From Roseovarius pelagicus (GTDB taxonomy: Bacteria > Pseudomonadota > Alphaproteobacteria > Rhodobacterales > Rhodobacteraceae), in assembly GCF_025639885.1 (NCBI RefSeq), contig NZ_CP106738.1:558001-622000 (forward strand): a DNA stretch of 64,000 nucleotides. The letters run 5' to 3'. Below are positions 9,007 to 34,664 of this stretch, piece by piece. The translations under genes were made by a program, and so were the position numbers. The notes below the pieces were generated by a model. It saw only the letters and a list, made by a program, of their open reading frames with translations, searched no databases and was not told the DNA's origin. Numbering within the stretch: the first letter of the stretch is position 1; the number at the start of each line of letters is the position of its first letter.

Positions 9007-9092
9007 CGTCCACTCCTCGGTGGCTACGATGAGCAACAAACCCTCTCTTAGCAAATGACCCTATTTGGACCCATAAGCGCTGACGTCAGACA

Positions 9093-9813: not shown

Positions 9814-10815
9814 TCATGACAATGCTCGAGTAGGTGCTTGGCCGTTAATCCAGTTTTCGTCTCCCGGCAAAGCGACTGACACGCAATGATTTGACAATCC
9901 AAGTACGCTTTCGACCGGGATTGTTGTTAGCTTGCCAAGTTCGGACAACCAGCCACCAGAGTTAATCTGAAATTGAACAATTGATGTTGGTGCCGATCGT
10001 TGATCCAATTTATCAACTTCATAGGCCGTCAGAACCATGTCTCCAGCTATCCCTGCTGCGAACAAGCGAACGGCCTGAGTAAAGGCGAGCAGCTCGCTCA
10101 ACAGAATAAGTCGCTGATTGGTCGGCGCGTCCACGCTGCGGGATTGATCGACGCCAAGTGTCAGTTTCGTGCGCACAACATAGGGCACCGCATGCAGCAA
10201 GTGGTTGGTTGAATACAGCGATACATGTGTCTTGCCGCCAGAAGGCCCATCCAGCTCCCACAATAGTTCTCTTGGCCTGTCCATCCCGGCGAGCAGATCA
10301 CAGGCCATGTCGAACATGTCCTTTGCCTTTGGTTGTATCGCCGAGGCCTCAAGGGTACCTCTTATCCATTCTGCGTCCACACGACGCCAGGTTCGCTTGG
10401 GCGCTTTTGGCGTTCGGTGGGGTCGGTCGAATGTGAAACCGCTGTCGTAGACTGGTGTTAAATCGACCACGCGTTGGTGCACCAGTTGAGGCAAAAGTTG
10501 TATACGGTTGAGGTCTGTTGCGGCCTCGTCGAGCCGTTTCTCCAATAAAGATGTGGAATTGCTAAGGTCGGCTTCCGATACCAACCCGGATGAAGATCGC
10601 CAGACAGCAGTTCTAAAATCATACCACAATGTCCGATTTTCTTTTGAGTTGCCCTTTTCCGATCGCAGAACCGGCAGGGTCGCCCGAATTCCGTTGCGAA
10701 CGTCTTTCGACAAGCTGTTCAGGCCGTCCAGCGAAACTTCTTGGCGCGGCAACCGATATTTGACAACGCCGGACTTCGTCAGCCGCCAAGTTCTTTTTTG
10801 CGCGTCCTTGTTCAT
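9814..10815 (-). CDS. Unknown protein, last gene of the MoxR/VWA operon
   Basis: A 333-residue protein, predicted soluble, without a signal peptide or clear membrane segment. ATG 10815 overlaps the stop of the giant upstream gene (ATGA). It has a basic N-terminus and two predicted globular parts (residues ~60-150 and ~170-320). The C-terminus (INGQAPTRALS) ends within two bases of an IS remnant, so the original 3' end may have been lost. I do not recognise a family. The overlap indicates a shared transcript with the giant membrane protein, and it may be a cytoplasmic partner. Confidence 0.7.
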   Translation of the reverse strand: MNKDAQKRTWRLTKSGVVKYRLPRQEVSLDGLNSLSKDVRNGIRATLPVLRSEKGNSKENRTLWYDFRTAVWRSSSGLVSEADLSNSTSLLEKRLDEAATDLNRIQLLPQLVHQRVVDLTPVYDSGFTFDRPHRTPKAPKRTWRRVDAEWIRGTLEASAIQPKAKDMFDMACDLLAGMDRPRELLWELDGPSGGKTHVSLYSTNHLLHAVPYVVRTKLTLGVDQSRSVDAPTNQRLILLSELLAFTQAVRLFAAGIAGDMVLTAYEVDKLDQRSAPTSIVQFQINSGGWLSELGKLTTIPVESVLGLSNHCVSVALPGDENWINGQAPTRALS

Positions 10816-13800
10816 GGCGGACTCAACAGGATACGCAGCTGCGCAGGCGTCAACTCGCCCGTCTCAGGCGCTGCTCGGCTTTTCTGAAACGACCGAATGG
10901 CGAAACGGGTGCGCGGTCCGACAATGCCGTCGCTAGGCCCCGGGTCGAACCCGCGCTGACGCAGTGCATCTTGAATGGCTCTGATTTCGGAGGGTGAAGC
11001 ACTGCCTAAATCAATTCCCTGTGGCGTCGTCGTTGAAGGCGGTGTTGGCGAGGGTTGGGGTTCTGGGACTATCGGCTGGGTTACCTCTGGCTCGGACTCA
11101 GCAGGTGCGGGTGCTTGCCTGGTTGTTTCAGTTTGCTCGGCAGGTGTTTGGGTTACAGGCGCAGGCGTTGCTACCGGTTCCGGCTCGGATTGTTCCTCGA
11201 GTTTTGGTGCAGGCGGCACTGGTGCCACTGGCGTGGTCTTTGCCAAAGCGCTCAAGGCGGCGTCCACGTCGAGCAGGTAGGCTTCCTCGTCTGTCAGAAT
11301 GACCACTCCCCGGGGCTGCGTACCCGCAAACGTCCCAAGCAGTGTTCCTGCAATACTTGGTCCAAGGCTTAGTTGGCGGCTAAAACCATCGCCGATTGAA
11401 ATCGCCCCGTCTTCACTCCGAGAGACAACCAGCGCCCCTGTGGCGTTCGGAAGCGCCCGCAACTGTGACAGGTCCCGCGTGCGGTTATCGACTTCCAAAG
11501 TGTCTGCAAAAACACGCAGCCCGCCGGGCTCACAAGGGATGGAGGTGATGAATGGACCGTCGGCATCAGTGCCGCGCAGATGGACTGTTCGATCCGCCCT
11601 CAGTGATATCGTGTCAAGTCTCGCCCCTTCGGGTATCTGGGTCTGCAACGCGCTCGTCAGCCCCTCGCAGCCATCCGCTGTACCGTCCTGATTTATAGCG
11701 CGCGCGCCTCCACGCGTGAGAATGGTCGGCCCCGCACCCGCCATTGTCGTTACACCGAGCGCATCTGCATAACTGTAAAGCGCTGTTATCTGTCCGACGT
11801 CGTCCAACCGTGCTGCACCCAGGGGATTTGGAAAGATTATCGCGCCACCGCTCCCGAGCGGCTGCGGCAAACCCGTGGCAATACGGTCGGTAAACACGCC
11901 ATCAGCAATCGTGCGCGTAATCACCGGCCCATTGGCAGCGATACCGAGCCCCGTTGGGACTGAGCCAGATGTTTGACGGTATTCAAACAACGCATCCTGG
12001 CCGCGCCAATCCGCGCAATCCTCCACGCGTGTGGGCTCTCCAGCGGCGGTGTAAGACACGAAAGCCGCTTCCGAGCCGCGTTGAAGACACAGCAATGGTG
12101 TTCCCTCGCTTTGCGCCCTGTCACCCGCCGCCAGCGTCACGGCCTCTGGGTTCGGAATGTCAGCAGGCCGCACACCTTCATGCAGCGCAAAACGATTTGC
12201 ACGATGTTCCCACAAACCCCGCCCGGCAACCAGGCTGACTCGGTTCTCGAATGGCACGGCCAGCGCGCGGTAATCGTCAAGATCGAAACGTCCGGCGGAG
12301 AGCGAAACATCACTGTCGCGGAAAGTGATTTCGATGTCGGGGCGCTGGCCCGGCGTTTCGTCGGTCATGCTCCAGCGCCAGCCATCGGTTTCGTCTATGG
12401 CCGTGCGGTTGGCAAAGATATCTTCATCGCTGGTCTGGAATGCGCCAACATCGCCCGGCGTGTTGACCCGCTCGGTCAGGACCCGGCCGTCGCGACAGCG
12501 AATGGTGATCGGCGCACCGGTTTCTGGCGCAATAGTGTGCGTGCGCCCATCCCGACGCGCGAGCCGGTCAATGCGGCAGCTATCCAGGCCTTCGGCAGGG
12601 TCTGTTGTTCGAAATAGCACGGCGTTCGGGTCAATGCTCAAACGGGTGTTGCTGACGCTGTGGCGCACAACACCGAGCGGTGTGACACGATCCACTTCCG
12701 CGTCATGGGCAAGAACACCGCGGGTGGTGTCCATCGCCGGAAGGCCCCCGATCCAACCCATGGCGTACCAATGGTCATCGGCCCTGCGGTGTTCATAGGT
12801 ACTCGCCGTCGCACCATTGCTCCTGATCCGAAGGCGTCCGGCACTAAAGGCCCAGCCACCCTCTGCCTCTGCGCGGACACCATAGACCAGCGGTGCTTGA
12901 ACCGCATTCCAAGCAGTTACTGCCGTGCGCTCCAGCGCAGCGTTTCCCGCGTCCCCGATCAAATAAAGACCACGGTTCAGTGTCCTGCCTCCGCCCAGCG
13001 GTGCATCAACCGGCTGGCAGTGCAGCGTCTCCCAGCCGGTCGTATCAGAAGACTGCGTTACATTCCCTTCGCGCCACGTCCGGCCATCTGACCATAGCTC
13101 CACCAGACCACCGAGACAAACGGCATGGGACCTCAGTGTGTCATGTGGCCAGTGCGGCGACGGGTTGTTTGTGACCCGCAAGGGTGGCTGGCCCCGCCGC
13201 ACATATTCACCATTCAGACCGCTCTCTGATTTGTCCCACCGCCAAAGATCGCTCTCCAGTATGCGCAAATTGTCGAGCAATGACGGGTCGCTACAGGCGG
13301 CCATCTGATCCGGCGCGGTAATCTCAGCGCAACGTCCCGCATCATCGCGGGCCAGAAACCGATCGGGCGCCCTTGAAGGTCTTCCCAAACGGGTCACAGG
13401 TTGAACACGGGCATCGACGCTGAGAGTTGGCTTGGTCAGATCGACAAGTTGCGGGCCAGCGGTCGGAAACAGCATTCGCAGACCCATGTCTGTGCCGACA
13501 TAAATCTGTGTCCCCTCAGCATGCACCGCATTTGCCCGGTCAAACGGCATACGTTCCCCTGCCCGCCATTCAAATCGGGCCATGCGTTGGGTCCCGTCCG
13601 GGTGGCCAGTCCTGCGCCGGGCAATCGGCGATTGCCCAGCTACCAGGTCAATCACAAAATCCCGCGTTTGCACTGCGCGGCGCGCGCGCCACGGCCTGAG
13701 GTCCGCAGGTGCCGAGGCCCAGGTTTTACCTGCCCTGTCCCAGATCACGGGCGGGCCTGACGATGTACGTGCGAAGATGACGTCGTTCCCGGGTATCACG

Positions 13801-16800
13801 GCCAGCGTATCGAAGGGCGTTCCGGGCACGTCGGGGACATCCGGATTGCCCAGCGTTGCCATCCCCGCACCGCCTGTCTTGCTATGCGTGCCGATGGCCG
13901 TCCCGATCACCACTGTCTGAGGCGTGGCACTCAGCGCGACCAACTGGTCGGCGCGGAATGAAAGGCCATCACGCGCGGTCCGCCAGTTGTCCGACGGGGC
14001 CGCAGCCGAGATGCTCAATTGCCCGTTGTCCAGCGTCCAGGTGGTTCGCCCTGTCTGCACAAGTGTGTGGCGTATAAATGGGTCATTGGCGGAAACCCAG
14101 TTCGATCCTGAACCATCGAGGCGCCACCAGCTTCCCGAACGCTCCGCATAGGTATCTGTGTTCACGCGCCGCAGGTGGACTGGCATCGATCCACCTGCCA
14201 GAGGCAAGACTGAGGCAAAGCTTTCAGCTGGAAGTATCCCCGCAAAGGTTGCAATGACGAGGCCCGTATCGCTCCAGCCAATGCCGCGACGTTGGTCGTG
14301 AAAAAACCCTCCAGAAGACGCAAAGGCATCGTTTTGGGAGCCATCCGCCCGCGTCACTTGAGATGTGATCTTCCGCGCACGCCACGTCGTGTCGATGCTG
14401 AGTGCCCCGAACCGCAGAGTTGAACCGTTCACATCGGTGTCCAGCGTCGTGGCCCCGAGGGCCAGTCCCTGACCATCGGGAAACAGAATGCGCCCGGCTT
14501 CCAGTCCCACCGGCTGGGGCAGGTCCATCAATCGAACGAGTGCCGGTTTTGCATCCCTTGAAGAAAAACGCCAGATCGCGTGCGGCGTGATCCAGTCAAT
14601 CGCTCCCGACGCATCGGCGAGCCGGGCAAAACCCGGGTGATTCAGCAACATTCGCCCGTCACGAATGAATTGCTCGGGAGGGACGGGCAAAGTGGATTGG
14701 TCGGCGGAAGCGACTTGAAAAGTGCCGCTGGCCCGTACCCACGACAGCCAACCGATTGTCATGGCGTCGAAGGGCAATTGAGGCGAAGTCAGCTCGGCTC
14801 TAACTTGTGTGCTGTCTCGCACGCTGCGAGCGTCGCTGTTAATATTGGATGGGGCAAGTTCGGACGTCCCATCAGGTGCCGATTCAATCCTGCGAACAAA
14901 GGTCGCTCGTTCATCTCGCAGTGGATTAAGAGAACGGAAATCAGGCCGCGTGCCTGTAAAGGGCTCAAAACCCGCTTCAGAATGGCCGAGGCTTCCCCCC
15001 TCAAAATGCACCGCACGACCCTCAACCGACAGCATTCGGCCAAGGCCGGGATCGTCGCTGAAAAGATGCGTAACGGCCCGTAGGCAAGGCCGGGTCGCAT
15101 CGTGGGGCGGTATCTCGCAAGCGTCCATCCTAAAGACGCGCAGTTTTCCATCGCCATGCTGCACCCAGATCCGGCCTTTTGTATCTAGCAACACCGCCGC
15201 AATTCGACTGGCTTGCGGGACAGGCAAATCAAACAGACGCCGACTATCCTCGCCTTGAACATACCCGTCCGCGTCGATGCCGACGAGTTGTTGCCCGCGA
15301 ACCCAATCAAAGGATATGGCCGAAAGGGACGAAATTGCCGAGACAGGCTGCGCCGCCGTGGGGGCGAACGCATCGAAGAACACCAACCCCTCCGGTGTCA
15401 GTGCCAGCAGCCGTCCGGATACCTCGGCGAGTTGTATGGCACTATCGAGCATATTACGCGCCGACTGGGCGTCGAGTAGCCACAAACCCCTACCAGGAGC
15501 TTCCCACAAAAGGCGGTGCTGTTCCCACATCAGGGGAAGCGAGCCCTTCGACACTTCAGGTCCCTCAATGGTCACCCTTTGCCGCAACGCCGGATCAAAC
15601 TGCACGAGGTCCAAACCGACAAAGGCCCATGTCACATCGCCCAGCCCCTCGAAGACACGCCCAACATCATCGGCATCAAGTTTCAGCGGCGCAGCGCTGA
15701 CCGTTTGGCAGTTGATAGTTGTGCCACCCGCGTCGATGGGACAACGCAGCAGCCTTCCATCGCCAGCAATCCTCCAGAGTATCGGGCCTTCTCTATCAAT
15801 TCCCCAGCTGCGATCTGTTCCGGGGCTGTAGTCATAAGTCTGCGAAAGCAACTTGCCCGAAGCGCGCGTCAGCCCGTTCCTGCCGGGAAAGATGAAAAGG
15901 CGATCAGGGGTGCGCCTCTCTCCAATATGGACGGCGTCTGTCTGGTCGAAACGTATCGGCACCGGCTCCACCGCGATGTCGGGGGGAATAATGATGCTAG
16001 CAATCGGCTTCCCCGCGCCCGGACTAGTGATTTCCAACGCATTGGCCGACGAGATGATCCACTTGCCGTCACGGGCGCTGACATCGCGGATTTGGTTTGC
16101 TGGTGTGCGCACGACGGGCAAAACATCGGGCTGGAACCGCTGGAGGTTCACGGTGCCGCCACTGATTTGCAACGAACTGATATAGCTGTGCCCTGCTTCG
16201 GTCCAGACGGTAATCCCGGCCGTAGTCGAATCAAAAGGCGCGACATCAACCTCCAAACTATCACCGCTCACGCCTTCAAGACGGATTCGCCGCCAAATCC
16301 TTCGGGAAAGATCGTACCGAAAAAGTTCGTCCTTGGCGGTAAAGACGACCCCGTCCGTGGTGCTCAACGCCTGCTGAAAGGCATTGGCATTGCGCGCCAT
16401 GTTTGTTGGTGCAGGCAAGACCAGAGACAATGATCCGCCCCGCCACCGGGTCACAGCCCCATCAGTTGCCAGCAGAGCCGCTTCGCCGCGGGCGGGATCA
16501 AATGTCGCTGAGCTGCCTTGCTCGTCAACTGTCCAGTTCAGGGGGACGACGGATGTATCACAACTATTCCGGTTTGGAATGGCCGAGGTAGGCAGCGAAC
16601 GTATCGAGTTGGCATCGACGACCAAAAGATGTCCACCCGTGATGTGCAGACGCATCGTATCTGTCGGACGCAGGCCGGATACACGCAACCAGCGCCGCTG
16701 ATCTGTCATGTAGATACCGACGCCGCCGGATGTCATCGCAAGGATACGACCCTCCGGCAAAAGCGCTGCGTCAATGACGCGCCCCGCAGGCGGGTCTGCT

Positions 16801-19172
16801 CCCAGAAATGTACAAACCGGTTGAGACGACTGAAAACTCCAATGCATCGCAAACGGCCTGCCGGTATTTGCTCGAGCCATGGCCAGGATGCCGTCGCCGG
16901 TGTTCCACGCCCCTAAAACCGGTGCCCGTGTCATGAGATCGTCGCCGATGCGCAATTGCTGCCCAGACAGCCAGATCGGGCGGCCTTGGAAGCTATGCAC
17001 TAACCGGACATCCCCGCGCCCGCCCGAATAGGCGGGCAGGAACGCGCTCGCGCCAGTTCCATAGAATTGAACCTGCCCGCGCCCCGCGATGTAAAAACCT
17101 CCCGCTGTGGGCAAAGCGTCGGTGAGATCGCTCAGACCAAGTTCGGCCTTGTTTCCCGAACCAACCAAAGTTTGCCATTCGGATCCCTGCTTTTGAACGA
17201 CACTGCCGTTCGCGGTCAAAACAATCAGCGAGTCGCTATGGCTTATGTCAGCGATGTGCCACCCGTTTGGGGCGGCTTCCGGACCCTGCCAGGTGCGATC
17301 TGCAACGTCGTAGGTCCAAAGCTGAGCGTTGTCGGCGAAAACAAGCCCGCCATCAAATGCTGTTGCCGTTCGAAACACGCCCCGGTCCGCCCGCGCCAGC
17401 CCGACCTGCGACGCGGCTTGCGGCTGCGTCTGTCCCGGTGTCAACACCAGCGGCCGCCCCGCACCGTTGACAACGAACAGCCTGCCCGGCTCTGCGTGAA
17501 ATGATCGCAACGGACCGGCAAGGATCACGGGGTCTGACACCACGGGCATGATGGCCGGAAAAACGCCGCGCAAAGCTACCGAAGAGACACTTCCTGACTG
17601 CGGATCAATCAGCCACATCCATGTGCCGGCCGCGCGCAGCCTTGCCTGCGGCCTCACCATCTGTTGCAGTTCCGGCGGCAACGAGGCGGCATCGACCCAT
17701 TTGAACTGCCGCGCGGCGACATCATGTAACAACAACCCACGTTGGCTCAGCAAAAGGACACGTGTTCCAAGCGCGGCACCGGCGTGGAAAACAACCCCGT
17801 CGGGGACAGCCCCTTCGCGCCCGGCCAGCACAGCATCGGTGTGCAGGTTGCGAACCTGTCCGTCCCGCGCCAGCCCGAGGACCATGCCCGACGCTGTGAC
17901 TTCAATTTGCGTAAATGGTCCCCCCTCCAATTCACGGTCGAGAGTGATCGCACCGCCCTTGATCTCCAGCAGACGGTTCGCAATCGTCGCGGTCACAGCG
18001 TCCGAAGCGGCGTCAATTCTGTATGCATCCACGCTGCCCGTCGCCAGCGATTTCCAACTTCGCGCGCTCCCGTCATAGGCAAAAAGCCCGCCTTCATCGA
18101 CGACAATGATCTGCCCGCCTTGCATGACAGCATTGCGAAGTGTCGTAGCGGACAGGCTAGAAATCTTTTCCTCCTCACCCGCGAGGAAAGTGTAGCGATC
18201 AGGATCAGAAACGCGCCTGATGGACAGGCAATCCACCCCACCGCCCCGAACACACGGCCCCTCTGTCAGAGCGAGCAAATCGCCGTTAGGCGTCACATCG
18301 AGATCGCGAATGAGCAGCGAGGCGTCGTTCGACCAAATCAAATCAACCGTTGATCTGTTGACCTGTACCCTGGCCAGCCCCTGCGTTGTCCCCAGCCAGA
18401 ATTGCGCCCCTCGCGCCAGCAAATGAACCGCGCCATCCTGTGCGGCAGCGTTCAGGCGCCCAGTGTTCTTGGGTATGCGCCATAGGTCGTCTTGTTGGTC
18501 AAAGACGGCAAAACCCTGCGCTCCGGCGAAAATCGCGATAAAACGACCGTCATCGCTTGTCGCCCAGGCTTCCACGTCGTCCTGTTCGACTGGACTGCCC
18601 TCTTCGCCGATCCACGGAGTATCCCGCAGCCGCACGCGCCAATCTGTGCCGTTGTCGCTTTGGGCAATGCCGCCGCCTTCAGACAGCACGAAAAGCCGGT
18701 CCGGCTCAGGGCACGGTGTATCGGTGTTTTGGAGTTTGCCACAACCTGCTGACACTGCGGCGATGCCGGTTTGCAACTCGGTTTCGTCGACCGTTACCTC
18801 CCATGTTTCGACGAGGCCTGTTTCTTCGTCAAACCGCGCCATCTGGCCGTTGTCACGCATGAGTATCACCGGCCCTTCACCATCCGCCAACGCCCCACCA
18901 CCAATGAAGGGCGCATCACTGTCTCGCAGATTGTTCAGGATGCGCGCATCCGGCAGAGGCTGGACAACAGGCGGATCCCACCAACCTGATCGGTCGATAG
19001 CTTGCGCTCCGAAAAACCCGGCCACGGCCAGCAAAACGGTGCCCGCCAGCGCAAGCACCGCGACGGGCAAATCAATCCGCTCCCGCACGGTGGCGTTTTG
19101 CACCTCCAGAGCGTCATTTTCGTAGGCTTCTTCGAGGGCTTTCGCCCGCGCCTGTTTGTGGTGCTCGCTCAT
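10812..19172 (-). CDS. Giant single-pass envelope protein with propeller-like repeats and C-terminal peptidoglycan-binding domain
   Basis: Predicted product is 2,786 residues. ATG 19172 overlaps the upstream stop (ATGA). Residues 1-35 are charged and cytoplasmic; 36-58 form one transmembrane helix (LPVAVLALAGTVLLAVAGFF); the rest should be periplasmic. About 2,500 residues consist of irregular short beta-rich units (patterns such as WLGTTQGLARV, GRILAMTSGGVGIYM, RIWVQHGDGKLRV) resembling stacked beta-propeller blades of the two-component-sensor/PQQ type. A Pro/Glu/Thr-rich linker (~2,640-2,720) leads to a PG_binding_1 domain in the last ~62 residues (IRAIQDALRQRGFDPG, then GPRTRFAIRSFQ). It probably spans the periplasm and contacts peptidoglycan. 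No stop or frameshift is seen over 8.3 kb, so it is maintained. The propeller assignment is by eye. Confidence 0.85.
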   Translation of the reverse strand: MSEHHKQARAKALEEAYENDALEVQNATVRERIDLPVAVLALAGTVLLAVAGFFGAQAIDRSGWWDPPVVQPLPDARILNNLRDSDAPFIGGGALADGEGPVILMRDNGQMARFDEETGLVETWEVTVDETELQTGIAAVSAGCGKLQNTDTPCPEPDRLFVLSEGGGIAQSDNGTDWRVRLRDTPWIGEEGSPVEQDDVEAWATSDDGRFIAIFAGAQGFAVFDQQDDLWRIPKNTGRLNAAAQDGAVHLLARGAQFWLGTTQGLARVQVNRSTVDLIWSNDASLLIRDLDVTPNGDLLALTEGPCVRGGGVDCLSIRRVSDPDRYTFLAGEEEKISSLSATTLRNAVMQGGQIIVVDEGGLFAYDGSARSWKSLATGSVDAYRIDAASDAVTATIANRLLEIKGGAITLDRELEGGPFTQIEVTASGMVLGLARDGQVRNLHTDAVLAGREGAVPDGVVFHAGAALGTRVLLLSQRGLLLHDVAARQFKWVDAASLPPELQQMVRPQARLRAAGTWMWLIDPQSGSVSSVALRGVFPAIMPVVSDPVILAGPLRSFHAEPGRLFVVNGAGRPLVLTPGQTQPQAASQVGLARADRGVFRTATAFDGGLVFADNAQLWTYDVADRTWQGPEAAPNGWHIADISHSDSLIVLTANGSVVQKQGSEWQTLVGSGNKAELGLSDLTDALPTAGGFYIAGRGQVQFYGTGASAFLPAYSGGRGDVRLVHSFQGRPIWLSGQQLRIGDDLMTRAPVLGAWNTGDGILAMARANTGRPFAMHWSFQSSQPVCTFLGADPPAGRVIDAALLPEGRILAMTSGGVGIYMTDQRRWLRVSGLRPTDTMRLHITGGHLLVVDANSIRSLPTSAIPNRNSCDTSVVPLNWTVDEQGSSATFDPARGEAALLATDGAVTRWRGGSLSLVLPAPTNMARNANAFQQALSTTDGVVFTAKDELFRYDLSRRIWRRIRLEGVSGDSLEVDVAPFDSTTAGITVWTEAGHSYISSLQISGGTVNLQRFQPDVLPVVRTPANQIRDVSARDGKWIISSANALEITSPGAGKPIASIIIPPDIAVEPVPIRFDQTDAVHIGERRTPDRLFIFPGRNGLTRASGKLLSQTYDYSPGTDRSWGIDREGPILWRIAGDGRLLRCPIDAGGTTINCQTVSAAPLKLDADDVGRVFEGLGDVTWAFVGLDLVQFDPALRQRVTIEGPEVSKGSLPLMWEQHRLLWEAPGRGLWLLDAQSARNMLDSAIQLAEVSGRLLALTPEGLVFFDAFAPTAAQPVSAISSLSAISFDWVRGQQLVGIDADGYVQGEDSRRLFDLPVPQASRIAAVLLDTKGRIWVQHGDGKLRVFRMDACEIPPHDATRPCLRAVTHLFSDDPGLGRMLSVEGRAVHFEGGSLGHSEAGFEPFTGTRPDFRSLNPLRDERATFVRRIESAPDGTSELAPSNINSDARSVRDSTQVRAELTSPQLPFDAMTIGWLSWVRASGTFQVASADQSTLPVPPEQFIRDGRMLLNHPGFARLADASGAIDWITPHAIWRFSSRDAKPALVRLMDLPQPVGLEAGRILFPDGQGLALGATTLDTDVNGSTLRFGALSIDTTWRARKITSQVTRADGSQNDAFASSGGFFHDQRRGIGWSDTGLVIATFAGILPAESFASVLPLAGGSMPVHLRRVNTDTYAERSGSWWRLDGSGSNWVSANDPFIRHTLVQTGRTTWTLDNGQLSISAAAPSDNWRTARDGLSFRADQLVALSATPQTVVIGTAIGTHSKTGGAGMATLGNPDVPDVPGTPFDTLAVIPGNDVIFARTSSGPPVIWDRAGKTWASAPADLRPWRARRAVQTRDFVIDLVAGQSPIARRRTGHPDGTQRMARFEWRAGERMPFDRANAVHAEGTQIYVGTDMGLRMLFPTAGPQLVDLTKPTLSVDARVQPVTRLGRPSRAPDRFLARDDAGRCAEITAPDQMAACSDPSLLDNLRILESDLWRWDKSESGLNGEYVRRGQPPLRVTNNPSPHWPHDTLRSHAVCLGGLVELWSDGRTWREGNVTQSSDTTGWETLHCQPVDAPLGGGRTLNRGLYLIGDAGNAALERTAVTAWNAVQAPLVYGVRAEAEGGWAFSAGRLRIRSNGATASTYEHRRADDHWYAMGWIGGLPAMDTTRGVLAHDAEVDRVTPLGVVRHSVSNTRLSIDPNAVLFRTTDPAEGLDSCRIDRLARRDGRTHTIAPETGAPITIRCRDGRVLTERVNTPGDVGAFQTSDEDIFANRTAIDETDGWRWSMTDETPGQRPDIEITFRDSDVSLSAGRFDLDDYRALAVPFENRVSLVAGRGLWEHRANRFALHEGVRPADIPNPEAVTLAAGDRAQSEGTPLLCLQRGSEAAFVSYTAAGEPTRVEDCADWRGQDALFEYRQTSGSVPTGLGIAANGPVITRTIADGVFTDRIATGLPQPLGSGGAIIFPNPLGAARLDDVGQITALYSYADALGVTTMAGAGPTILTRGGARAINQDGTADGCEGLTSALQTQIPEGARLDTISLRADRTVHLRGTDADGPFITSIPCEPGGLRVFADTLEVDNRTRDLSQLRALPNATGALVVSRSEDGAISIGDGFSRQLSLGPSIAGTLLGTFAGTQPRGVVILTDEEAYLLDVDAALSALAKTTPVAPVPPAPKLEEQSEPEPVATPAPVTQTPAEQTETTRQAPAPAESEPEVTQPIVPEPQPSPTPPSTTTPQGIDLGSASPSEIRAIQDALRQRGFDPGPSDGIVGPRTRFAIRSFQKSRAAPETGELTPAQLRILLSPP

Positions 19173-25554: not shown

Positions 25555-25564
25555 GCCAGTCCTG

Positions 25565-26374: not shown

Positions 26375-28932
26375 CTTCGCACCCCGCCCAAAAACAACGA
26401 CCCGGCAAACAACGCCGCAGCCAACCCTGCAAACCAAGGCCAAAGTGGCACGGGCCGCAATTCGGCGCGCGCACGCATCAAATCTGGCACCGCCACCGCA
26501 AGATCGATACCACCGCTCGCCGCCCGTATTTCACTCAACAAAAGGTTGTTCACACCGAATCCAAAAGCTTCCTGCGTCGATGCTGGGTTCCAGTTTTCTC
26601 GCGAACGCGCGGGCAATCGTATCGGAATTTCTTGTACTTCGCCGTTCCCCAAATCCACCATCAAGTTACCCCGCATGGTTGTGTTTGACAAGCTGATCCG
26701 ACCGATCCCTTCAAACGCGCCAAAGGCGTCTTGCGCACGCATCGAAAGACCCGTGCTGGAGCCATCGGGTAGCAAAATCGCGACAGAGATCCTTGCTGGA
26801 ACGGGACCGCCCCCAAGCGGGGTTATCCGTACCTTGAGGTCTTCGCCACTCAGCGACAAGTCGATGTCAAATCGCTCCGGATCGTCCCAAGCGGCCAGCT
26901 CATCCAAAACCGTACTGGCCCAGCCCTGTGGCCCCACTGGCAAACCAATCGGTACCGATCCCAGAAACACACCTGTCTTGAGCGACGTCAATTTGGGTTC
27001 CCGCCGAAACGCCAGAACCGGCGCACGTGGAGGGTCCGCCATGATGCTCAAATGACTGCTTTCAGGCCTCGGATAGCTCAACGCGATGCCACCCACCGGC
27101 AAACGCATCTCAAAGTGCGATACCTCGTCGGCAGGAATGACCTCAAGCGGCCCATCCCGCCAGAACTCCTCGCGCGGTTCTGGCTTGAAAGCCTTGAATT
27201 CGATCCTCCCCAACTGGGTCGCTGTGCGGATCGGCACCTGTTCACCCCAGTTTGTATCGATTCCCGGCAAAGGTTCATTCGCGACACCAATGGCCGTGGT
27301 AAAGCAAATAGGGCGGCCCTTGATCTGATCGCGCTCGTACCCGCCGTCCCCGATGATAAATAATGCGCAATTGTTGCCGCGCAAAAGCCGCGCCTGATTG
27401 ATCGCCGCCTCTATCATGGTGTCACCGCCAACACTCAGATCAGCGATGGCGCGACGCGCTCGCGCCACCTCTGACGGCGGCATGGACGATGCCGTAAACG
27501 CCAGCCCGGCGCCGCTTGAAAACGACACGATGGTCAATGAATCCTGCGGTCGCACCGCATCAATGACCTTGTTCGCGGCCTCGCGGGCGACGCTCATATA
27601 TGGCCCCATCGATCCCGAAGTATCGATGATAATCAACAGATCGCGTTTTGGCGGCTGACGGATATAGAGCGCCGGATCGCTGTTGACCGGCAGCACCTCA
27701 CCTAAAACTGTTTCTTCCCAATCCGCCAGACGTTGTTGATCCTCTCGGTTACCGCGCAGCGGCCCGTTGACCAGAAACAGCCCAACACCACCCGCCGCCG
27801 CCTCAGATAGCCGCTGGTCAGTGCCGCTTGGAAAATTAATGGGCTCCAAACCGTCGATCACAACGACATCATATGTTCCGAAATCCACGTCATCACCTGG
27901 CGAAGCCCGCTCAATGAGGAAGCGAGCTGGATCGGCGCCGTCCACCCAACTTGCACCGCCGAATACCAGAGCGCGCGCCGGACCACGCACCAGCGTGTAG
28001 ACGTGTTCAGTTCGCAGCGGTTCCCCTTTCCCTTGAGAAAACCCGAGGTCAACGAAGTTCAGCCCGCGTTCGGGAAACTCCACCGGGATACGTACGGCCA
28101 TCGGCCTGCCCGCATCTGCAACATCGCGCTCGGGTTCAGCCAAGCCGTTGATCCCCCAACGGAGCACCCCGCCGCCTTGCAACGTTGCCCGCAAAACCGC
28201 AGGGCGGCCGATGGCCTGATCCGGCCCGATGTTATGGGACAAAAGACCCATCGCAGGCTGCAAAGACCCCACCCCCAGCGTATGGATCGCAACCCCCGAC
28301 TGCGCTGCGGTCTCTGCCGCCGCCAATATGTCTCCGTCTGTCTCCAGCCCGTCGCTGATCAAGAAAATCATGCCCGCACCTGGACCATCTGCGATGTCCG
28401 CCATTCCAGCTTCCACCGCTCGGGCCAGATTGCTTGTGTTGGCCAACGCGCCGAGATCAGCCGACCGGATACTGGCCGGCAGGTCGGACAGGCTCGTATC
28501 AGCCGAAATACTTCGCGTCGTTGCTCCAAAGGCGCGCACGGACCCTCGCCAGTCTGCCTCTTCCGGCAGCGACTCTGCGATATCCTGCAGTCGGCTCGCG
28601 ACGATCTCGCGCGCGTCGTTCACCGCTCCGTCGCCATCCCTGCGGACACTCTCGGATGCGTCGATCAGCACGGCTACCCGCCCGCCGGGCGGCGGGTCTC
28701 CCAAAGGCTGGAGCACTGGCAATCCTGTGGCGGTCGCCAATAGGATCGCCGCCAAAGACACAAGTGCCGCACCAACCGCCTGCGCCATCGGTACCCGGCG
28801 TCGAAAAGCCCAGAAAATCGAAAGGGCAATAACAAGCACGGCAAACACAGTCGCAAGCATGGGAAGCCATCCCGCCGCTTCGCATAGAAGCGCCATGTCC
28901 CACACCACCAGACCCTGCATCCAATCACACAT
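26371..28932 (-). CDS. Tandem-VWA membrane protein with glutamine-amidotransferase-like insert
   Basis: An 853-residue protein starting at ATG 28932 (8-base overlap ATGTGTGA with the upstream gene). Two transmembrane helices lie at ~23-42 and ~50-75, and one at the very C-terminus (LWPWFAGLAAALFAGSLFLG). A first VWA domain (~85-240) keeps a metal-site motif DASES; a GATase1-like segment (~318-420, with ALVFGG and YDVVVIDGLEP) follows; a second VWA domain has the classical DTSGSM at 437-442. BatA/BatB-type proteins next to MoxR and DUF58 are similar, but two VWA domains in one chain are unusual. It is predicted to present its metal-site domains between the two membrane anchors. Confidence 0.88.
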   Translation of the reverse strand: MCDWMQGLVVWDMALLCEAAGWLPMLATVFAVLVIALSIFWAFRRRVPMAQAVGAALVSLAAILLATATGLPVLQPLGDPPPGGRVAVLIDASESVRRDGDGAVNDAREIVASRLQDIAESLPEEADWRGSVRAFGATTRSISADTSLSDLPASIRSADLGALANTSNLARAVEAGMADIADGPGAGMIFLISDGLETDGDILAAAETAAQSGVAIHTLGVGSLQPAMGLLSHNIGPDQAIGRPAVLRATLQGGGVLRWGINGLAEPERDVADAGRPMAVRIPVEFPERGLNFVDLGFSQGKGEPLRTEHVYTLVRGPARALVFGGASWVDGADPARFLIERASPGDDVDFGTYDVVVIDGLEPINFPSGTDQRLSEAAAGGVGLFLVNGPLRGNREDQQRLADWEETVLGEVLPVNSDPALYIRQPPKRDLLIIIDTSGSMGPYMSVAREAANKVIDAVRPQDSLTIVSFSSGAGLAFTASSMPPSEVARARRAIADLSVGGDTMIEAAINQARLLRGNNCALFIIGDGGYERDQIKGRPICFTTAIGVANEPLPGIDTNWGEQVPIRTATQLGRIEFKAFKPEPREEFWRDGPLEVIPADEVSHFEMRLPVGGIALSYPRPESSHLSIMADPPRAPVLAFRREPKLTSLKTGVFLGSVPIGLPVGPQGWASTVLDELAAWDDPERFDIDLSLSGEDLKVRITPLGGGPVPARISVAILLPDGSSTGLSMRAQDAFGAFEGIGRISLSNTTMRGNLMVDLGNGEVQEIPIRLPARSRENWNPASTQEAFGFGVNNLLLSEIRAASGGIDLAVAVPDLMRARAELRPVPLWPWFAGLAAALFAGSLFLGGVRR

Positions 28933-30559
28933 TGCCCCGCCCCCAAACCAGCCCACCAGCGCGCTCGGCCAATAACAGCAGCAAACCGAAAGCAAACAGC
29001 CAAGGTTCCCAGCGAAGACGGTTTGCGCGGTTCTCATCTGGCGGCACCGCATCGACTAGCGGCGGTTCGTCAAGGGCGGCTAGCGTTGGCGCCGGAGCCA
29101 ACGCGCGCGCGGTGTCGCTCTCCGCCCGCGCCTCCGCGATCGGCTCTCCATCCATCGTCACATACTGCAATACGGGCGCTGCGGGAATCGCCTCCTGCGC
29201 AACCCAGGACAAGGCATTGTAAAACATCAACCGTGCCAGCGCCCGGACGTCCGGTGATCCTTGGGCTGACGGGTCCGGCACAATGACGCCGCGCGGGCTT
29301 TGCCGTTCAGCCAACCAGACATCGCCCGAAGCATCGGGGCGAATAATTGACCGGAAGCCGTCCGGAGCCCTGATTGCACGCGGCGCGTTGGTTTCCAGAA
29401 CATCGAAGTTCACTCCGTTCAATACCGGATGATCCTGCATAAACGGCCCAATCGTATTGCCCGCGCCTGACGGGTTCGGCCAGCCCGCATAGGTCAACAC
29501 GAATGGTCCTTTCGGCAGCGCCAGTCCTGGCCCCCCGTATGGCGCAACTACAATCGCGGAAGCGTCTGGCGTTGGTGGTGCAAACGCGCCGGGGCGTGCC
29601 ATGTTCGCCAATCTCCAATCCACCGCCACCCGCTCAACGTCGCCCAGTATCATCTCTACGTGATCATCAAGCGCCAGGGCTCCGCCCTTTACAACCTTCA
29701 GCTGATAGCGCCCTGACCCAGCATATGGCACCACCCCGATCCAGCCGCCAATGCGCTCTTCGTCGCGCCGCAACGCAACCTCTGACCGCCCTCCCGGCCC
29801 CTCCACCGCGACTGTGACATCGCCCGGGCCCACCCCAAATCCCGCGACTTCGACGACCAACTCCGGCGCGCGGTTATGGAGAGCGCCTAAGTTAACCCTG
29901 ACATCCCATATTGCGAGGTTGTCCGCAGGCTCCCCGATCTGATACCAGACCAGATAGCCCGCATGCCGCGCTTCCGGGACAATCCTTGCTGCCAGGTCAG
30001 ACACCACCACCACATGGCTCGGCGCGCGCCCGCACGGTCCTTCCACACCGATCGCGCCAAACAAGGCGGCTACGGGTTGACCGCCGACATCAGGTTTCAA
30101 TTCGGCCAAGACCGCCCCGATGCTTCCAGCTTCGACCAAGCGCGGCGCAGGTCCCGTCACCACCATGTCGAGACATCCCCCTTGTTCGGTTTCAAACCGT
30201 CCGACAGCCTCTCGAACAGCATCCGCGGCCCTTGCCACCCTCTCCCCCACCCCCATGGAGCCGCTGACATCCAGCACGATACGCAGGTGCCGATGCTCCG
30301 TCGCGTCACGTTCGCGCACAGCGAAACTCATCGGAAAAAGCGCCAACGCCACCAGACCGACAATCGCCAGCCGCAACCAAAAGAGAAGCGACACAATCAG
30401 ATTGCGCAGCGAAAACTTGCGCTTGGGCGCATGGCTCTCAGGGGGAACAGGCATCAAATGCGCAACCGATACGCGGATATCCCGATAGTTCGGCCTGACC
30501 ATGTGAAAGCCGATCACCGCACCAAGTGCGACCAAGGACAATATCCCCAGGCCCATCAT
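28925..30559 (-). CDS. BatA-like VWA membrane protein
   Basis: A 544-residue protein. It begins with a BatA-type N-terminus (membrane helices at ~3-20 and ~54-77, with the conserved HAPKRKFSLRNL between them), followed by a VWA domain with DVSGSM at 97-102. A central beta-rich region (~200-330) and a GATase1-like region (~330-430) lead to a C-terminal transmembrane helix (LFAFGLLLLLAERAGGL). VWA domains bind partner proteins through a metal ion; in Bat operons they work with MoxR and DUF58. The start is ATG 30559, 3 bases after the DUF58 stop. Confidence 0.9.
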   Translation of the reverse strand: MMGLGILSLVALGAVIGFHMVRPNYRDIRVSVAHLMPVPPESHAPKRKFSLRNLIVSLLFWLRLAIVGLVALALFPMSFAVRERDATEHRHLRIVLDVSGSMGVGERVARAADAVREAVGRFETEQGGCLDMVVTGPAPRLVEAGSIGAVLAELKPDVGGQPVAALFGAIGVEGPCGRAPSHVVVVSDLAARIVPEARHAGYLVWYQIGEPADNLAIWDVRVNLGALHNRAPELVVEVAGFGVGPGDVTVAVEGPGGRSEVALRRDEERIGGWIGVVPYAGSGRYQLKVVKGGALALDDHVEMILGDVERVAVDWRLANMARPGAFAPPTPDASAIVVAPYGGPGLALPKGPFVLTYAGWPNPSGAGNTIGPFMQDHPVLNGVNFDVLETNAPRAIRAPDGFRSIIRPDASGDVWLAERQSPRGVIVPDPSAQGSPDVRALARLMFYNALSWVAQEAIPAAPVLQYVTMDGEPIAEARAESDTARALAPAPTLAALDEPPLVDAVPPDENRANRLRWEPWLFAFGLLLLLAERAGGLVWGRGNV

Positions 30560-30562
30560 CGC

Positions 30563-31552
30563 CTAACCCGACCGAGACATTAGCGCGCGCCAGGCCCGGT
30601 TTTCGGGCAAGGCAGTGCGGAACCATGCGCGCGCCGACCCCGCATCAAACCCCGCATCCGCGGGATACCGGATCGGTTCGTCGGGCCAGATCATCCCCTG
30701 CCCGCCCCATCGGGCGCGAAACGTCACACGCCGTTCGGCCAGACGCGCCTCTACTTGGGCCAGATATGCCTCCGGGGCATCAAACATGGTTTCACCGAAG
30801 CTTTTTCCTGCCAGGGCTCGCAAGCGGAACGGCTGCGCCTTCAGCAAGGCGCGCTCATGCGGCCAGCTATCGATCTCCACCACGTGGAAACTGCGAAACC
30901 CTTTCTGCGCGCGTCGCACAAAACCTGCCAGCGCCCCGTCGGGATCATCTCCCAACGCATCCGTCACAAAAACAACCGCCGCTGCCGGGCGCAAATGTCG
31001 CTCCACGTCGGACAGTTGTGCCTTTGGCACCGCTTGCCAATCGTCATTTGTTAGAGCTGCGTCCAGCGCATCGCGCACCATCGTCTGCATACACGCAAAT
31101 CCTGCCGACCCTTCGATCCGGATCGCCCTGCCGTCGCCCCCAAACACTGGTGCCACAAAAACCCGGTCCAGCTCCGCCAGCGCGACTTGCAACAAACAGG
31201 CGGTGATCCACGCTGCCACGCCCAATTTGGGCACAGAAACCGGCAGACGCATCGCGGGCCTGCAATCCAGCAATACGATCAGCGTCCGCCGTTCCTCCGC
31301 TTCGAAGGACTTCGCAACCAGATCCCATTTGCCGCCCTTGCGCGCAGAGGCCGCCCAATCCACGCTGCGAATATCCTCGCCAAAGCTGTAATCGCGATAC
31401 TCTCGAAATTCGAGCGACTGACCCATGCGCCGCCGCAAATGCGGCCCCAGCCCCGCGCTTGGCGCGTATTTGCGCAAATGAAGCCTAAGATTGCGCAAGG
31501 CCGTCGCGCCAATCGGTGCATTCAGGGGAAATGGCTTGGTCGCCGCCATCAA
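30563..31552 (-). CDS. DUF58 family protein (MoxR/VWA adaptor)
   Basis: A 329-residue protein with the DUF58 signature SLEFREYRDYSFGEDIRSVD at ~46-65, followed by a VWA-like fold whose metal site is degenerate (LLDCRPAM at ~94-101 in place of DxSxS). DUF58 proteins are regular partners of MoxR ATPases. The start overlaps the MoxR stop (ATGA). Unlike some DUF58 proteins it lacks N-terminal membrane helices and is probably cytoplasmic. Confidence 0.92.
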   Translation of the reverse strand: MMAATKPFPLNAPIGATALRNLRLHLRKYAPSAGLGPHLRRRMGQSLEFREYRDYSFGEDIRSVDWAASARKGGKWDLVAKSFEAEERRTLIVLLDCRPAMRLPVSVPKLGVAAWITACLLQVALAELDRVFVAPVFGGDGRAIRIEGSAGFACMQTMVRDALDAALTNDDWQAVPKAQLSDVERHLRPAAAVVFVTDALGDDPDGALAGFVRRAQKGFRSFHVVEIDSWPHERALLKAQPFRLRALAGKSFGETMFDAPEAYLAQVEARLAERRVTFRARWGGQGMIWPDEPIRYPADAGFDAGSARAWFRTALPENRAWRALMSRSG

Positions 31553-32721
31553 AACCGCGCCATGTTGGATGCCTGATTCAGTGCAGCGCGGAACTCTGCG
31601 TCATAGCCCTCCCGCGCGGGCGCACAGATTGCCACAAATTCGCGCACCAGATTGTCGTGCGTGTCTGCTTCCCTACCGCTCTGGTCATAGGGAATGTCAA
31701 ATTTCATACGATGGCGCAGCACAGGTAGCGCAACCTTGGCCAAGGCCTGGGTCGTCTTGACGGGTAGTTGGCTCGGCTCGCCGGGGTCGATCTCATGCAC
31801 CGCCGCCCATCCCAATGTCGCCAACGTCAGTGAGGTTGCCGCCCGCGGCCCCAACTCATAGCGCAAACGATCGCGGCGAAACTCCCGTAGTTTCTCCAGT
31901 GTCACGCCAGCCACACCTTGCACTCCGTCGAAATCCCCAACTGACGCCATAACGATGTTCAAAATGTGGGTCTGGACATCTGCATTCGGCGTTGTCGCAC
32001 GCAAGCCCCGCCCCAAACGATGCAGATTGGCCAGACTCTGATCCATGCTCCAGCGCGGCCTGTCCTTGTCGGAGTCACCGTCCCGTCCCGCGCCGGTGTC
32101 TTTGGCAATAATCGCCGACAGCGTATCACGCTTTGGAAACGGCATCACTGCCTTGAACAGGAAACGGTCAAGCTGTGCCTCTGGCAACTCATAAGTGCCT
32201 TCTTGTTCAACTGGGTTCTGCGTTGCCATGACCATAAAAGGCGGGTGCACCGTCATCGATGTGCCATCGCGGACCTCTTTCGGTTCAGCCAGCGCATAGC
32301 GCTGCCCCAGAACCGTGACCTGAAATTCCGCCATTGCCTCCAGCATGGCGGCTTGCGTTTTGGGCGTGGCCCGGTTGATCTCATCAGCCAAGAGCAAACG
32401 ACAAAAGATCGGCCCGGGCTGAAACACAAGGCGCCCCTCATCGTCAGGCATCTTGGTACCGGTAATGTCCGACGGCATCAGATCAGGCGTAAACTGGATT
32501 CGTCCCACATCCTCGCGCGGGAAATCCATCGCCGCAGACAGCGACCGGATAAGTGCCGTTTTCCCAAGGCCTGGATTGCCTTCCAGTAAGACATGCCCGC
32601 GCACCACCATGGCCACCAACAGAAGGTTGATGATGCCATCGATGCCGTTCATGTCCTCTTTCACGCGATCCCGGATCGAATGAAGCCAGAGCAGTTCCGC
32701 CTTAGAAATCATATCAGACAT
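31549..32721 (-). CDS. MoxR-family AAA+ ATPase (classical)
   Basis: A 390-residue MoxR ATPase. Walker A GNPGLGKT is at 48-55, Walker B LLLADE at 109-114, sensor 1 ATQNP at 166-170, followed by the MoxR hallmark EQEGTYELPEAQLDRF. I chose ATG 32721 with AGGG upstream; the frame opens at a TTG at 32745. MoxR proteins act as chaperone-like ATPases for metal-dependent or multi-subunit complexes and usually pair with DUF58 and VWA proteins, as here. A ~15-residue Asp/Gly/Lys-rich loop (residues ~211-222) is an insertion between the AAA+ core and lid. Confidence 0.94.
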   Translation of the reverse strand: MSDMISKAELLWLHSIRDRVKEDMNGIDGIINLLLVAMVVRGHVLLEGNPGLGKTALIRSLSAAMDFPREDVGRIQFTPDLMPSDITGTKMPDDEGRLVFQPGPIFCRLLLADEINRATPKTQAAMLEAMAEFQVTVLGQRYALAEPKEVRDGTSMTVHPPFMVMATQNPVEQEGTYELPEAQLDRFLFKAVMPFPKRDTLSAIIAKDTGAGRDGDSDKDRPRWSMDQSLANLHRLGRGLRATTPNADVQTHILNIVMASVGDFDGVQGVAGVTLEKLREFRRDRLRYELGPRAATSLTLATLGWAAVHEIDPGEPSQLPVKTTQALAKVALPVLRHRMKFDIPYDQSGREADTHDNLVREFVAICAPAREGYDAEFRAALNQASNMARF

Positions 32722-32741
32722 GACACACCCTAAATGTTGGC

Positions 32742-34664
32742 TCAATTCTCAACGGCATTCTCAAGTTCCTTGATCCAAGATGGTATTCTTTGTGTCGGGG
32801 GCTTTGCGGGCAACAGGTTTTCGGGATACTCGGGCAAATCGCCCTGAAAAATCGTCAACCCCTCCGGGGCGGCACCTGACGCCGCGAACGGGTGAGATTG
32901 GCCTGTGGGGTCAAAACCCTCTGCTTCAACCTCGTTACCGTCTCCTGCCGCCGAGCCGCCCTGCACAGCGTTTGCTGTTTCCTCGCTGCTGCCGTCCGGG
33001 GCTGGTTGCTCAGCGACCCGGCTGTCGTCGCCCGATAAGTCCGAACCTTCGCCGGCAACAGCCAAGTCCGCCTGCTCCTCACTACTGCCACTGGCTTCGG
33101 GGCGCGTGGCTGCGGCATCAGGCGCGCCACCGTCAATGCTATCTTGATCTCCACCGCCGTTTTCGGTCTCCACATCTGCGTTGTCCTCCGTGCCGGTACC
33201 GCCATCCTTAGCATCACCTTGCTCGTCGGCAGCTTCTCCATCGCCGTCATCGCCTTGTTGCCCGTCCTGCGCACCATCCGAAGGAAGTTCCTCACTTCCC
33301 GCTTGCCCGTCCGGCGCGTTCTCTTCGCCGTTCGTGCCCTGTTCACCTTTTTGCACGCCCTCCGATGCAGCGTTCTCGCGCGCCTCGCCTCCCTGTCCTT
33401 CAGATTGACCACCTTCAACGTTGTCGCTCCGTTGCCCCTCCTGACCGTCTTCCGGTGCGGCTCCGTCTCCACCATTCTGACCGTCAGAAGAACCGCTTTC
33501 GCCATTTTTCAAAGGTGCCTCGCCCGACTCTTGCTCGGACGGCGCAGTTTCACCCGTTTCTCCTGGCTCTGTGCCCTCTCCGCCGTCTGTCCTATCCGTG
33601 CCATCGATTTCCTGCCGCTCTTGGCCCTGCCCGCCGTCTCCGTCGGTCTCCGCGTTCTGGCCTGTATCTCCCTGGCCTTCGCCTGATTGACCGTTCTTCT
33701 GGTCCGCTTTATCCGACGCACCGCCCTGCCCGTTTCCGTTCTCTCCGTCGCTTTCCCGTTCGCCGCCACCGCATTCGTCTCGGTCATTTGACGAAGGGTC
33801 TGTTTGGTCTTCGTCCTGTTTCTCTTCCTCCTCCGGCGGAACTTGTTCGGACGCCCCCGTCAGAAACGTCAGCGGTGATGGCAAAGGTGGCAGAACGTTC
33901 AGCGGCAGCCAGAGCGCTAGCGCCCAGGCAATCAGTCCGGCGCTCAAACCATGCCAGGAAAGACCCGACATTGCCTTGAAGCGCCATGCCATCCGCGCGC
34001 CGAACAAGGACAATTCTTGCTCGGCGAGCTTCGGCCAAAACGCTGCCCCGTCCCGCAGCACGCCCAAAACCTCAATGGCCGCCGCCGACCCTTCCGGCCC
34101 ATGGGTCCGCTTTAGCGCCTCGTCCACGCGCCAGGAATGGCGCAGCCTCGCCAGCGCCTCCCGTCCCAACCTAGTGCGTTGCGAAGGAGCTGGTTCCATC
34201 AATGTGACGGCCGCTTCCGCGCCTTTATGTAGCCGCAAGCCCGACCCCGCAACGATCGTTGCAATCAGAAGTCCAGGGCCCATGAACAGTGCCGATATGG
34301 GCAGTCCGAACTGCGTTCGCGCCAAAGTTGCCATCACCAAGAGCCAGCCGCCCGCCGCGATAAGATGCCCTGCTCGGAAGCGCGTCCTTGCCACTCGCGC
34401 CAGCCGCCGCACGTCGTCGGTACCGGCATGCTCAAATCGCTCATGACGCGCCACCACTGCGCGCCATAGAAGCGCCACTGTAGCCGTGCTGATCAGCGCG
34501 GACGTCACACCCAAAACCGCGATCACCAAAGCCCAATCGACCAAAGCCGCTTGTCGCCCCGCGGCTGCCGATGCCACAAGCACGCAAACCAGCCAGACCA
34601 AACCCAGGACCGCTGGACCCAAAACATGAAAAATCGCTTTAATTTGTCCCAAGTCGAAGACCAA
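32742..34664 (-). CDS. Multi-pass membrane protein with very long acidic Gly/Glu/Asp/Gln-rich tail
   Basis: A 640-residue protein, first gene of the large operon. It shows five hydrophobic helices (about 10-32, 42-68, 98-117, 120-141 and 235-262). From ~275 to ~590 the chain is low complexity, dominated by Gly, Glu, Asp, Gln, Ser and Asn, strongly acidic and surely disordered. It ends with a more ordered patch (GLTIFQGDLPEYPENLLPAK, then PSWIKELENAVEN). With five helices the tail and the N-terminus would be on opposite sides of the membrane. The start is uncertain: TTG 34664 directly follows an in-frame stop, and no ATG is near. I do not recognise the family; a hydrophobic substrate or regulator of the adjacent MoxR ATPase is one possibility. 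Confidence 0.75.
   Translation of the reverse strand: MVFDLGQIKAIFHVLGPAVLGLVWLVCVLVASAAAGRQAALVDWALVIAVLGVTSALISTATVALLWRAVVARHERFEHAGTDDVRRLARVARTRFRAGHLIAAGGWLLVMATLARTQFGLPISALFMGPGLLIATIVAGSGLRLHKGAEAAVTLMEPAPSQRTRLGREALARLRHSWRVDEALKRTHGPEGSAAAIEVLGVLRDGAAFWPKLAEQELSLFGARMAWRFKAMSGLSWHGLSAGLIAWALALWLPLNVLPPLPSPLTFLTGASEQVPPEEEEKQDEDQTDPSSNDRDECGGGERESDGENGNGQGGASDKADQKNGQSGEGQGDTGQNAETDGDGGQGQERQEIDGTDRTDGGEGTEPGETGETAPSEQESGEAPLKNGESGSSDGQNGGDGAAPEDGQEGQRSDNVEGGQSEGQGGEARENAASEGVQKGEQGTNGEENAPDGQAGSEELPSDGAQDGQQGDDGDGEAADEQGDAKDGGTGTEDNADVETENGGGDQDSIDGGAPDAAATRPEASGSSEEQADLAVAGEGSDLSGDDSRVAEQPAPDGSSEETANAVQGGSAAGDGNEVEAEGFDPTGQSHPFAASGAAPEGLTIFQGDLPEYPENLLPAKPPTQRIPSWIKELENAVEN

Follow-up and report, generated by a model that had tools for sequence, protein, structure and literature searches.

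A 64,000-bp stretch of the Roseovarius pelagicus genome (hereafter the window; C2:558001-622000 of a source genome of 4.27 Mb in 3 contigs, whose plasmid is similar to plasmids of roseobacter-group Rhodobacterales) contains a run of 14 open reading frames (ORFs), all on the minus strand and spanning 9814–34664 in the window's ORF list. We conclude, with a probability of roughly 0.6, that these genes form an operon for a single accessory MoxR-VWA remodelling machine that spans the envelope and moves horizontally, most likely for envelope recognition. The reading as one machine rests on the conserved gene set and order, the motifs, the topology, the VWA-like domain of g8 and the propellers of g13, and the reading as accessory and mobile from its rarity, its presence on plasmids and a synteny break at a tRNA-Gln gene. 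Its putative use is probably sensing or conflict.

Gene layout of the operon

The operon encodes, in order, an acidic membrane protein (g1), a MoxR ATPase (g2), a DUF58 protein (g3), two VWA proteins (g4 and g5), g6, a bpMoxR ATPase (g7), g8, g9, a small transmembrane (TM) protein (g10), g11, the giant g13 and the tail gene g14 (Table 1). Overlaps of 4 bases join g1/g2, g2/g3, g5/g6, g7/g8, g10/g11, g12/g13 and g13/g14, and one of 8 bases joins g8/g9, while gaps of 3 and 10 bases separate g3/g4 and g6/g7, respectively. The starts of g5, g6 and g10 lie inside the longest ORF, and that of g9 is at 22899; with downstream starts, which we chose from the start-codon list, g4 and g5 overlap by 8 bases and g9 and g10 by one (TGATG).

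The ORFs g11 (19791-20345) and g12 (19169-19990) share 200 bases, read in different frames, and correspond to positions 3-144 and 115-335, respectively, of a family of 343 positions. This family is a single ORF in all 29 other loci that yielded it, of which L030 and L047 are truncated where their contigs end. Since both match successive parts of a family intact elsewhere, g11 and g12 are, judged from these matches, one gene that a frameshift, either in the genome or in its assembly, has split. The initial annotation, which described a 14-gene minus-strand operon with overlaps at nearly every junction, was right about the strand, the ORFs and the overlaps, but the operon has 13 genes.

Table 1 Features of the operon and its flanks (positions in the window).
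Feature	Position	Strand	Description
g1	32742..34664	-	4-5 TM segments, then long acidic Gly-rich tail ending P-x-W-[IV]-x-x-[LI]
g2	31549..32745	-	MoxR AAA+ ATPase (AAA_3), PF07726 176.8 bits
g3	30563..31552	-	DUF58 protein, PF01882 46.5 bits
g4	28925..30559	-	VWA-like, 2 N-terminal and 1 C-terminal TM segments
g5	26371..28932	-	Two VWA domains flanked by N- and C-terminal TM segments; VWA_2 56.2 bits; start chosen from codon list
g6	25565..26374	-	Fold unassigned, conserved before g7; no Pfam match
g7	24496..25554	-	bpMoxR-type AAA+ ATPase, P-loop GPPGTAKS, PF20030 178.6 bits (cut-off 27)
g8	22892..24499	-	Helical domain and degenerate VWA-like domain (predicted structure); candidate g7 co-chaperone
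g9	20800..22899	-	699 aa, unassigned central part, coiled-coil-like C-terminal part
g10	20342..20800	-	Small single-TM protein; position kept, sequence hardly
g11+g12	19169..20345	-	Two-TM family
g13	10812..19172	-	Giant membrane-anchored propeller protein; C-terminal PG_binding_1, PF01471 42.8 bits
g14	9814..10815	-	Variable tail slot; 4-base overlap with g13
tRNA-Gln(ttg)	5159..5233	+	Left edge of conserved synteny
Large serine recombinase	5416..7185	-	PF00239, PF07508; beside tRNA-Gln
Transposase pieces	8144..9054	-	8144-8644 has helix-turn-helix transposase domains; relatives of both pieces in L140
rve-type transposase piece	34798..35448	-	Pfam match

Conservation of gene order

The gene order is beyond chance, since the same order occurs in distant taxa. 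Searches of plasmid records with g9 and g7 (tblastn) revealed it on two conjugative-type Paracoccus plasmids, and a class-wide g7 search of 385 genomes returned the window's own genome and two more (L030, L045) in which the order was confirmed. When named genomes were scanned using an alignment of g7, 244 relatives were found, the best 80 of which were kept as loci (L018-L097) picked on g7 alone. Local profile searches around these showed that g8 follows g7 in 35 of the 36 loci L018-L053, with L039 ending inside g7, and found g1, g3, g4, g6, g8, g9, g11 and g13 in none of the 44 loci L054-L097. Ten of the latter had a g5-type VWA match, nine of them weak (135-172 bits) and one strong (424 bits; L069). 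L069 is from Latescibacterota, with a g5 relative upstream of a distant bpMoxR gene and a contig that ends just after g7, and may be a distant member of the system.

The window, the two plasmids and L018-L053 make up 39 loci (L052 and L053 come from one metagenome-assembled genome, MAG) that carry the set whole, cut or reduced; L102, L103, L105, L106, L109, L115 and L117 were excluded as wrong contigs. All eleven detectable genes were present in order on one strand in 18 loci, with junctions mostly overlapping or very close; the others were reduced, or cut by contig ends or the 10 kb flank, and the sole strand break across the 39 loci was g1 on the other strand in L050. Three Acidobacteriota loci (L031, L032, L034) kept g6-g9 with g1-g5, g11 and g13 not detected, and a fourth (L040) kept g5-g9; L032, L034 and L040 also have a two-TM protein of 136-147 aa after g9. 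No g1-g5 were detected in L042 and L053, and no g1 in L035 and L038. Beyond Alphaproteobacteria, record titles name Thiosymbion and an Alteromonadaceae MAG, and further MAGs titled Oscillochloris, Planctomicrobium, Opitutia, a cyanobacterium and Acidobacteria, with the caveat that MAG assignments may be wrong. The proposal in the initial annotation that the same order be sought elsewhere, and in islands, was thus answered by these loci, which include plasmids and island-like locations.

In a tree of 82 g7-type proteins (L039 omitted as too short; long branches flagged, L069 included), 38 rows of the system fell on one side of a branch with 100/100 support, apart from the 44 others.

Domain content and predicted topology

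Pfam matches above cut-off were obtained for g2, g3, g5, g7 and the C-terminus of g13, and for no others. Hydropathy indicated TM segments in g1, g4, g5, g10 and g11 and a single segment early in g13, whereas g3 and g6-g9 looked soluble save for scattered matches; some g2 rows had a hydrophobic stretch near the P-loop.

In the first half, g1 was detected in 20 of the 39 loci (window counted). Among these 20 sequences, inspected by eye, all 13 that reach the profile end carry the motif P-x-W-[IV], and 9 of the 13 fit the stricter pattern P.WI..L. Of 24 g2 rows, 23 conserve ADEINR and 18 fit the strict Walker A pattern; the g3 family was found in 24 loci. The VWA_2 match of g4 was just 15.5 bits, below the Pfam cut-off, and its metal ion-dependent adhesion site (MIDAS) start D.[ST].[ST] was present in 24 of 27 aligned sequences; in g5 the MIDAS starts of both VWA domains were present in 28 of 28 (the MIDAS counts rest on an alignment without the short rows). 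A Bat-type operon consists of MoxR, DUF58 and membrane VWA proteins in order, and g2-g5 show this order, with TM segments flanking the VWA proteins. The charge pattern, which was inspected by eye for g4 and g5, leads us to infer a periplasmic location for the VWA domains of both these proteins, for the acidic g1 tail and for almost the whole of g13.

In the second half, g6 was present in 35 loci (the window and one duplicate counted). Walker B was intact in all 39 g7 sequences, GPPGTxKS in 35 and the GXXXTAKS P-loop in 29, and the nearest solved structure by sequence was RavA; the ATPase motifs of g2 and g7 confirm that the operon encodes two AAA+ proteins, as first proposed. For g8 the search for a solved relative by sequence gave a single match at E 0.54. 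As the g4 and g5 VWA domains probably face the periplasm, the VWA-like protein g8 is the more likely partner of g7. The view that membrane VWA proteins are adaptors for ATPases inside the cell was therefore only partly sustained: g4 and g5 are TM-flanked, but their VWA domains are probably on the other side of the membrane. The solved-structure matches shown for g9 were nearly all coiled-coil or helical proteins and lay on its C-terminal part, and a genome scan with g9 alone as query gave no relative. Fold comparisons covered the families in the lists used; families outside these lists may apply. Among the proteins once listed as unassignable, g8 is now VWA-like by model and g11 and g12 are one gene, whereas g6 and the central part of g9 keep that status, the C-terminal part of g9 being coiled-coil-like by its matches to solved structures.

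By a loose criterion, the g10 slot was occupied in 26 of 30 loci by a TM-containing ORF of 135-293 aa. Residues 1-1000 of g13 were modelled, and the predicted structure consists of a membrane anchor followed by beta-propeller blades; no TPR match was found in g13 by Pfam. PG_binding_1 occurred in 4 of 10 other g13 C-termini, all four from Rhodobacterales. With the C-terminal 899 residues as query, 15 of the 27 carrier genomes yielded long matches and 12 only short ones or none. The picture of a giant periplasmic propeller protein bound to peptidoglycan thus agrees with the anchor, the propeller in the modelled part and the PG_binding_1 domain, but wall contact is not general.

Tail genes were poorly conserved. 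A same-strand ORF of at least 274 aa begins close to the g13 end in 12 of 20 downstream stretches, although the one in Azospirillum canadense may be spurious. The window's g14 had no significant relative among 12 other tail genes (phmmer E 0.53 or worse), while the Allosediminivita tail gene matched those of Poseidonocella (E 1e-13) and Thalassovita (E 4e-6). We considered g14 as the N-terminal part of h1, the tail gene of P. versutus, and rejected this on the lack of a significant match to the 12 tail genes; a profile containing g14 and three others hit one h1 at 9.1 bits (E 0.00054), which we do not count as support.

Genomic context and mobility

Compared with six congeners, synteny is kept as far as the tRNA-Gln end. 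Beyond it, five of the six gave no DNA match longer than 150 bases to the window (6-19 kb compared), and the sixth (L140) carries a related recombinase (58% identity) at the same tRNA; the tRNA-Gln and serine recombinase look like an integration site. No copy of the tRNA end was found in the window as a second att site, nor repeats at the settings used, and these repeat and tRNA-end searches did not locate the right island edge. The transposase pieces on both flanks, of which we take those at 8144-9054 to be IS630-like, together with the synteny break, bear out the earlier suggestion of an acquired module flanked by insertion sequence (IS) remnants. A DNA methyltransferase-like gene (N6_N4_Mtase; 35420-36526) lies just upstream of the operon behind the right-hand transposase piece.

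The set is rare. Among 60 relatives g9 was found in the window's own genome only, as was g8 among 292 genomes of the order and among 398 of the phylum; this rarity is approximate, as the g8 scans scored only 3-4 first-look candidates per genome and the order also includes named carriers. Seven equal-scoring 303 aa ATPase-like frames in the source genome (C1, C2) are probably IS21 IstB copies. Elsewhere, a 1748 aa protein with RCC1, FG-GAP and RTX repeats (L015 4612-9858) lies beside the G362 copy.

Shango neighbourhood

A strong PF10923 (SngB-type) match was present in 8 of 29 carrier records and lay within about 5 kb of g13 in five: P. versutus, P. aminovorans, P. lutimaris and G427, on the same strand, and R. 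capsulatus, on the opposite strand. In P. versutus, P. aminovorans and G427 the operon continues on the same strand through h1 into SngA-, SngB- and SngC-type genes. The P. versutus genes match SngA, SngB and SngC at E 5.8e-85, 1.1e-172 and 1.1e-255, respectively, and h1 has a weak TerB_N match and resembles SngA over 235 aa (27%). In L013 (30221-37878), L014 (29788-37481) and L099, Shango-type genes come directly after the operon, with a TerB_N-like gene of 568-585 aa between.

These arrangements would fit a reading in which the operon is an anti-phage or anti-plasmid module extending Shango, a known anti-phage system, with h1 bridging to SngA. However, 24 of the 29 carrier records had no PF10923 near the operon (three have one on another contig, and some contigs, e.g. 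G426, end too soon to judge), and the five near carriers all belong to a single g7 clade, so that the adjacency may be one event. With the opposite orientation in R. capsulatus as well, we regard this extension of Shango as somewhat unlikely. The window's own genome gave no PF10923 match. Among non-Shango neighbour proteins scanned for defence, 12 of 17 had no match; in P. lutimaris, a UvrD-like helicase gene, an unassigned gene and an SNF2-like helicase gene overlap one another upstream of the operon (L112 2710-11605) and perhaps form another defence set.

Proposed function and alternatives

In the envelope-spanning machine that we propose, a g7 ring with g8 (and g9 and g6) in the cytosol would serve as motor and co-chaperone, and a g2 ring with the DUF58 protein g3 would act on the membrane proteins g1, g4 and g5. 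The small membrane proteins g10 and g11 would connect the cytosolic complex to g13, whose propellers would form the outside binding or sensing arm. ATP-driven remodelling would then change the state of the outer assembly or pass a signal inward. The most likely use would be to recognise phage, conjugation, rival cells or damage where these affect the envelope, rather than to insert a cofactor. More specifically, the operon could be an immune or surveillance machine, in which the periplasmic propeller chain recognises an attacker or a wall breach and the two AAA+ motors, via the membrane VWA proteins, relay this to partners in the cytosol, which in some strains would be the neighbouring Shango; we put this forward only tentatively and consider it unlikely in that exact form. 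The Shango adjacency, confined to one g7 clade, makes a conflict role a lead and not a demonstration.

Alternatively, the operon may be an assembly or maturation machine in which g13, or an envelope enzyme encoded elsewhere, is folded, exported or installed by the ATPases and VWA proteins, much as NorQD and RavA-ViaA each act on one target. MoxR-VWA pairs with known targets behave in this way (PMC7159879, PMC13036017), and g13, the largest gene, is close to the end of the operon; but the Acidobacteriota loci have g6-g9 without detected g13, the gene set is rare and mobile, and Pfam scans showed no metabolic enzyme family among the operon proteins, which leaves assembly doubtful. A chance pairing of two unrelated modules, a Bat-like MoxR-DUF58-VWA-VWA set and a bpMoxR set, would fit the reduced loci with g6-g9 alone and L042 and L053, but is very improbable given the joint order, with its close junctions, in 18 loci of several phyla.

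MoxR-VWA machines are widespread and few have a known job. As a conserved set of 12-13 genes with two such ATPases, membrane VWA proteins and a propeller protein of 2,400-2,900 residues, the operon is a defined object for the question of how cytosolic AAA+ force crosses the inner membrane. Its carriers include Rhodobacter capsulatus and Paracoccus, both amenable to laboratory work, and with Shango nearby a role in defence can be tested directly.

Comparison with known systems

Kaur et al. 2020 describe four MoxR-vWA systems, none of this make-up in the portion of the article available (PMC7159879). We found no published description of the operon; a mention in the source data of that article is possible, as supplements lay outside the search. 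A 2026 BREX paper (PMC12839542) and a Hachiman paper (PMC12278908), the latter listing Shango SngC among defence helicases, concern BrxD and Shango only, in the passages available. Pfam found no VMAP, iSTAND or FtsH components in the 14 proteins, the library's coverage of all three being unconfirmed, and a PADLOC scan of 10 of the 14 operon proteins (g1, g2, g4-g10 and g14) gave only weak partial matches (best E 3.4e-4).

The nearest published relatives are the MoxR-vWA beta-propeller ternary systems, in which, according to the same portion of Kaur et al., a vWA protein with a C-terminal beta-propeller is a strict feature and the third component has a variable N-terminus, a TM segment and C-terminal TPR and propeller (PMC7159879). 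None of the 14 window proteins had a bpX marker domain at E 0.1 (Pfam), and g4, g5 and g8 had no propeller or bpX Pfam match, the g8 model ending in its VWA-like domain. Controls gave bpX6 in L079 and bpX1, bpX2 and bpX3 with a below-cut-off bpX0 in L062; four of ten control proteins had a bpX domain, one via a bpX1 match just over the cut-off, whereas neither L077 protein carried one and, of the two from L079, one lacked it, which shows the marker to be incomplete. Nine partner families seeded from L056, L058, L062, L077 and L079 had matches only in L056-L096 and in none of the 39 system loci, and g6, g8, g9 and g11 had no convincing profile match to those partners (best g8, probability 11.9%, pairwise E 0.0025). 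With no bpX or partner genes detected and a separate g7 group, identity with the published ternary system was not supported, and the possibility raised at the outset, that all parts match a described system, was not borne out.

The operon shares with the ternary systems, as far as the available text sets these out (PMC7159879), a PF20030 ATPase, the GXXXTAKS P-loop, propellers, membrane contact and a VWA-like partner that may have lost its MIDAS aspartates. It differs from them in that the propeller is a separate giant anchored protein (g13) instead of being fused to the vWA protein; it also has an extra MoxR-DUF58-VWA-VWA set, and no bpX domain was detected in the operon. Shango (SngABC) adjoins or lies near the operon in the five Rhodobacterales and is no part of the window operon. 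Compared with Bat-type operons, the order of MoxR, DUF58 and membrane VWA genes is the same, and the operon adds the second ATPase half, the giant propeller protein and the g1 tail. Compared with RavA-ViaA and NorQ-NorD, g7 is nearest to RavA and g8 is a partner with helical and VWA-like parts, but the VWA domain of g8 is degenerate, and many extra genes accompany the pair with no assigned target. The operon, not a member of the ternary systems as far as tested, is best read as working like a MoxR-VWA remodelling machine of the general mechanism outlined in the available text of PMC7159879 and PMC13036017, and as sharing the theme of the ternary systems.

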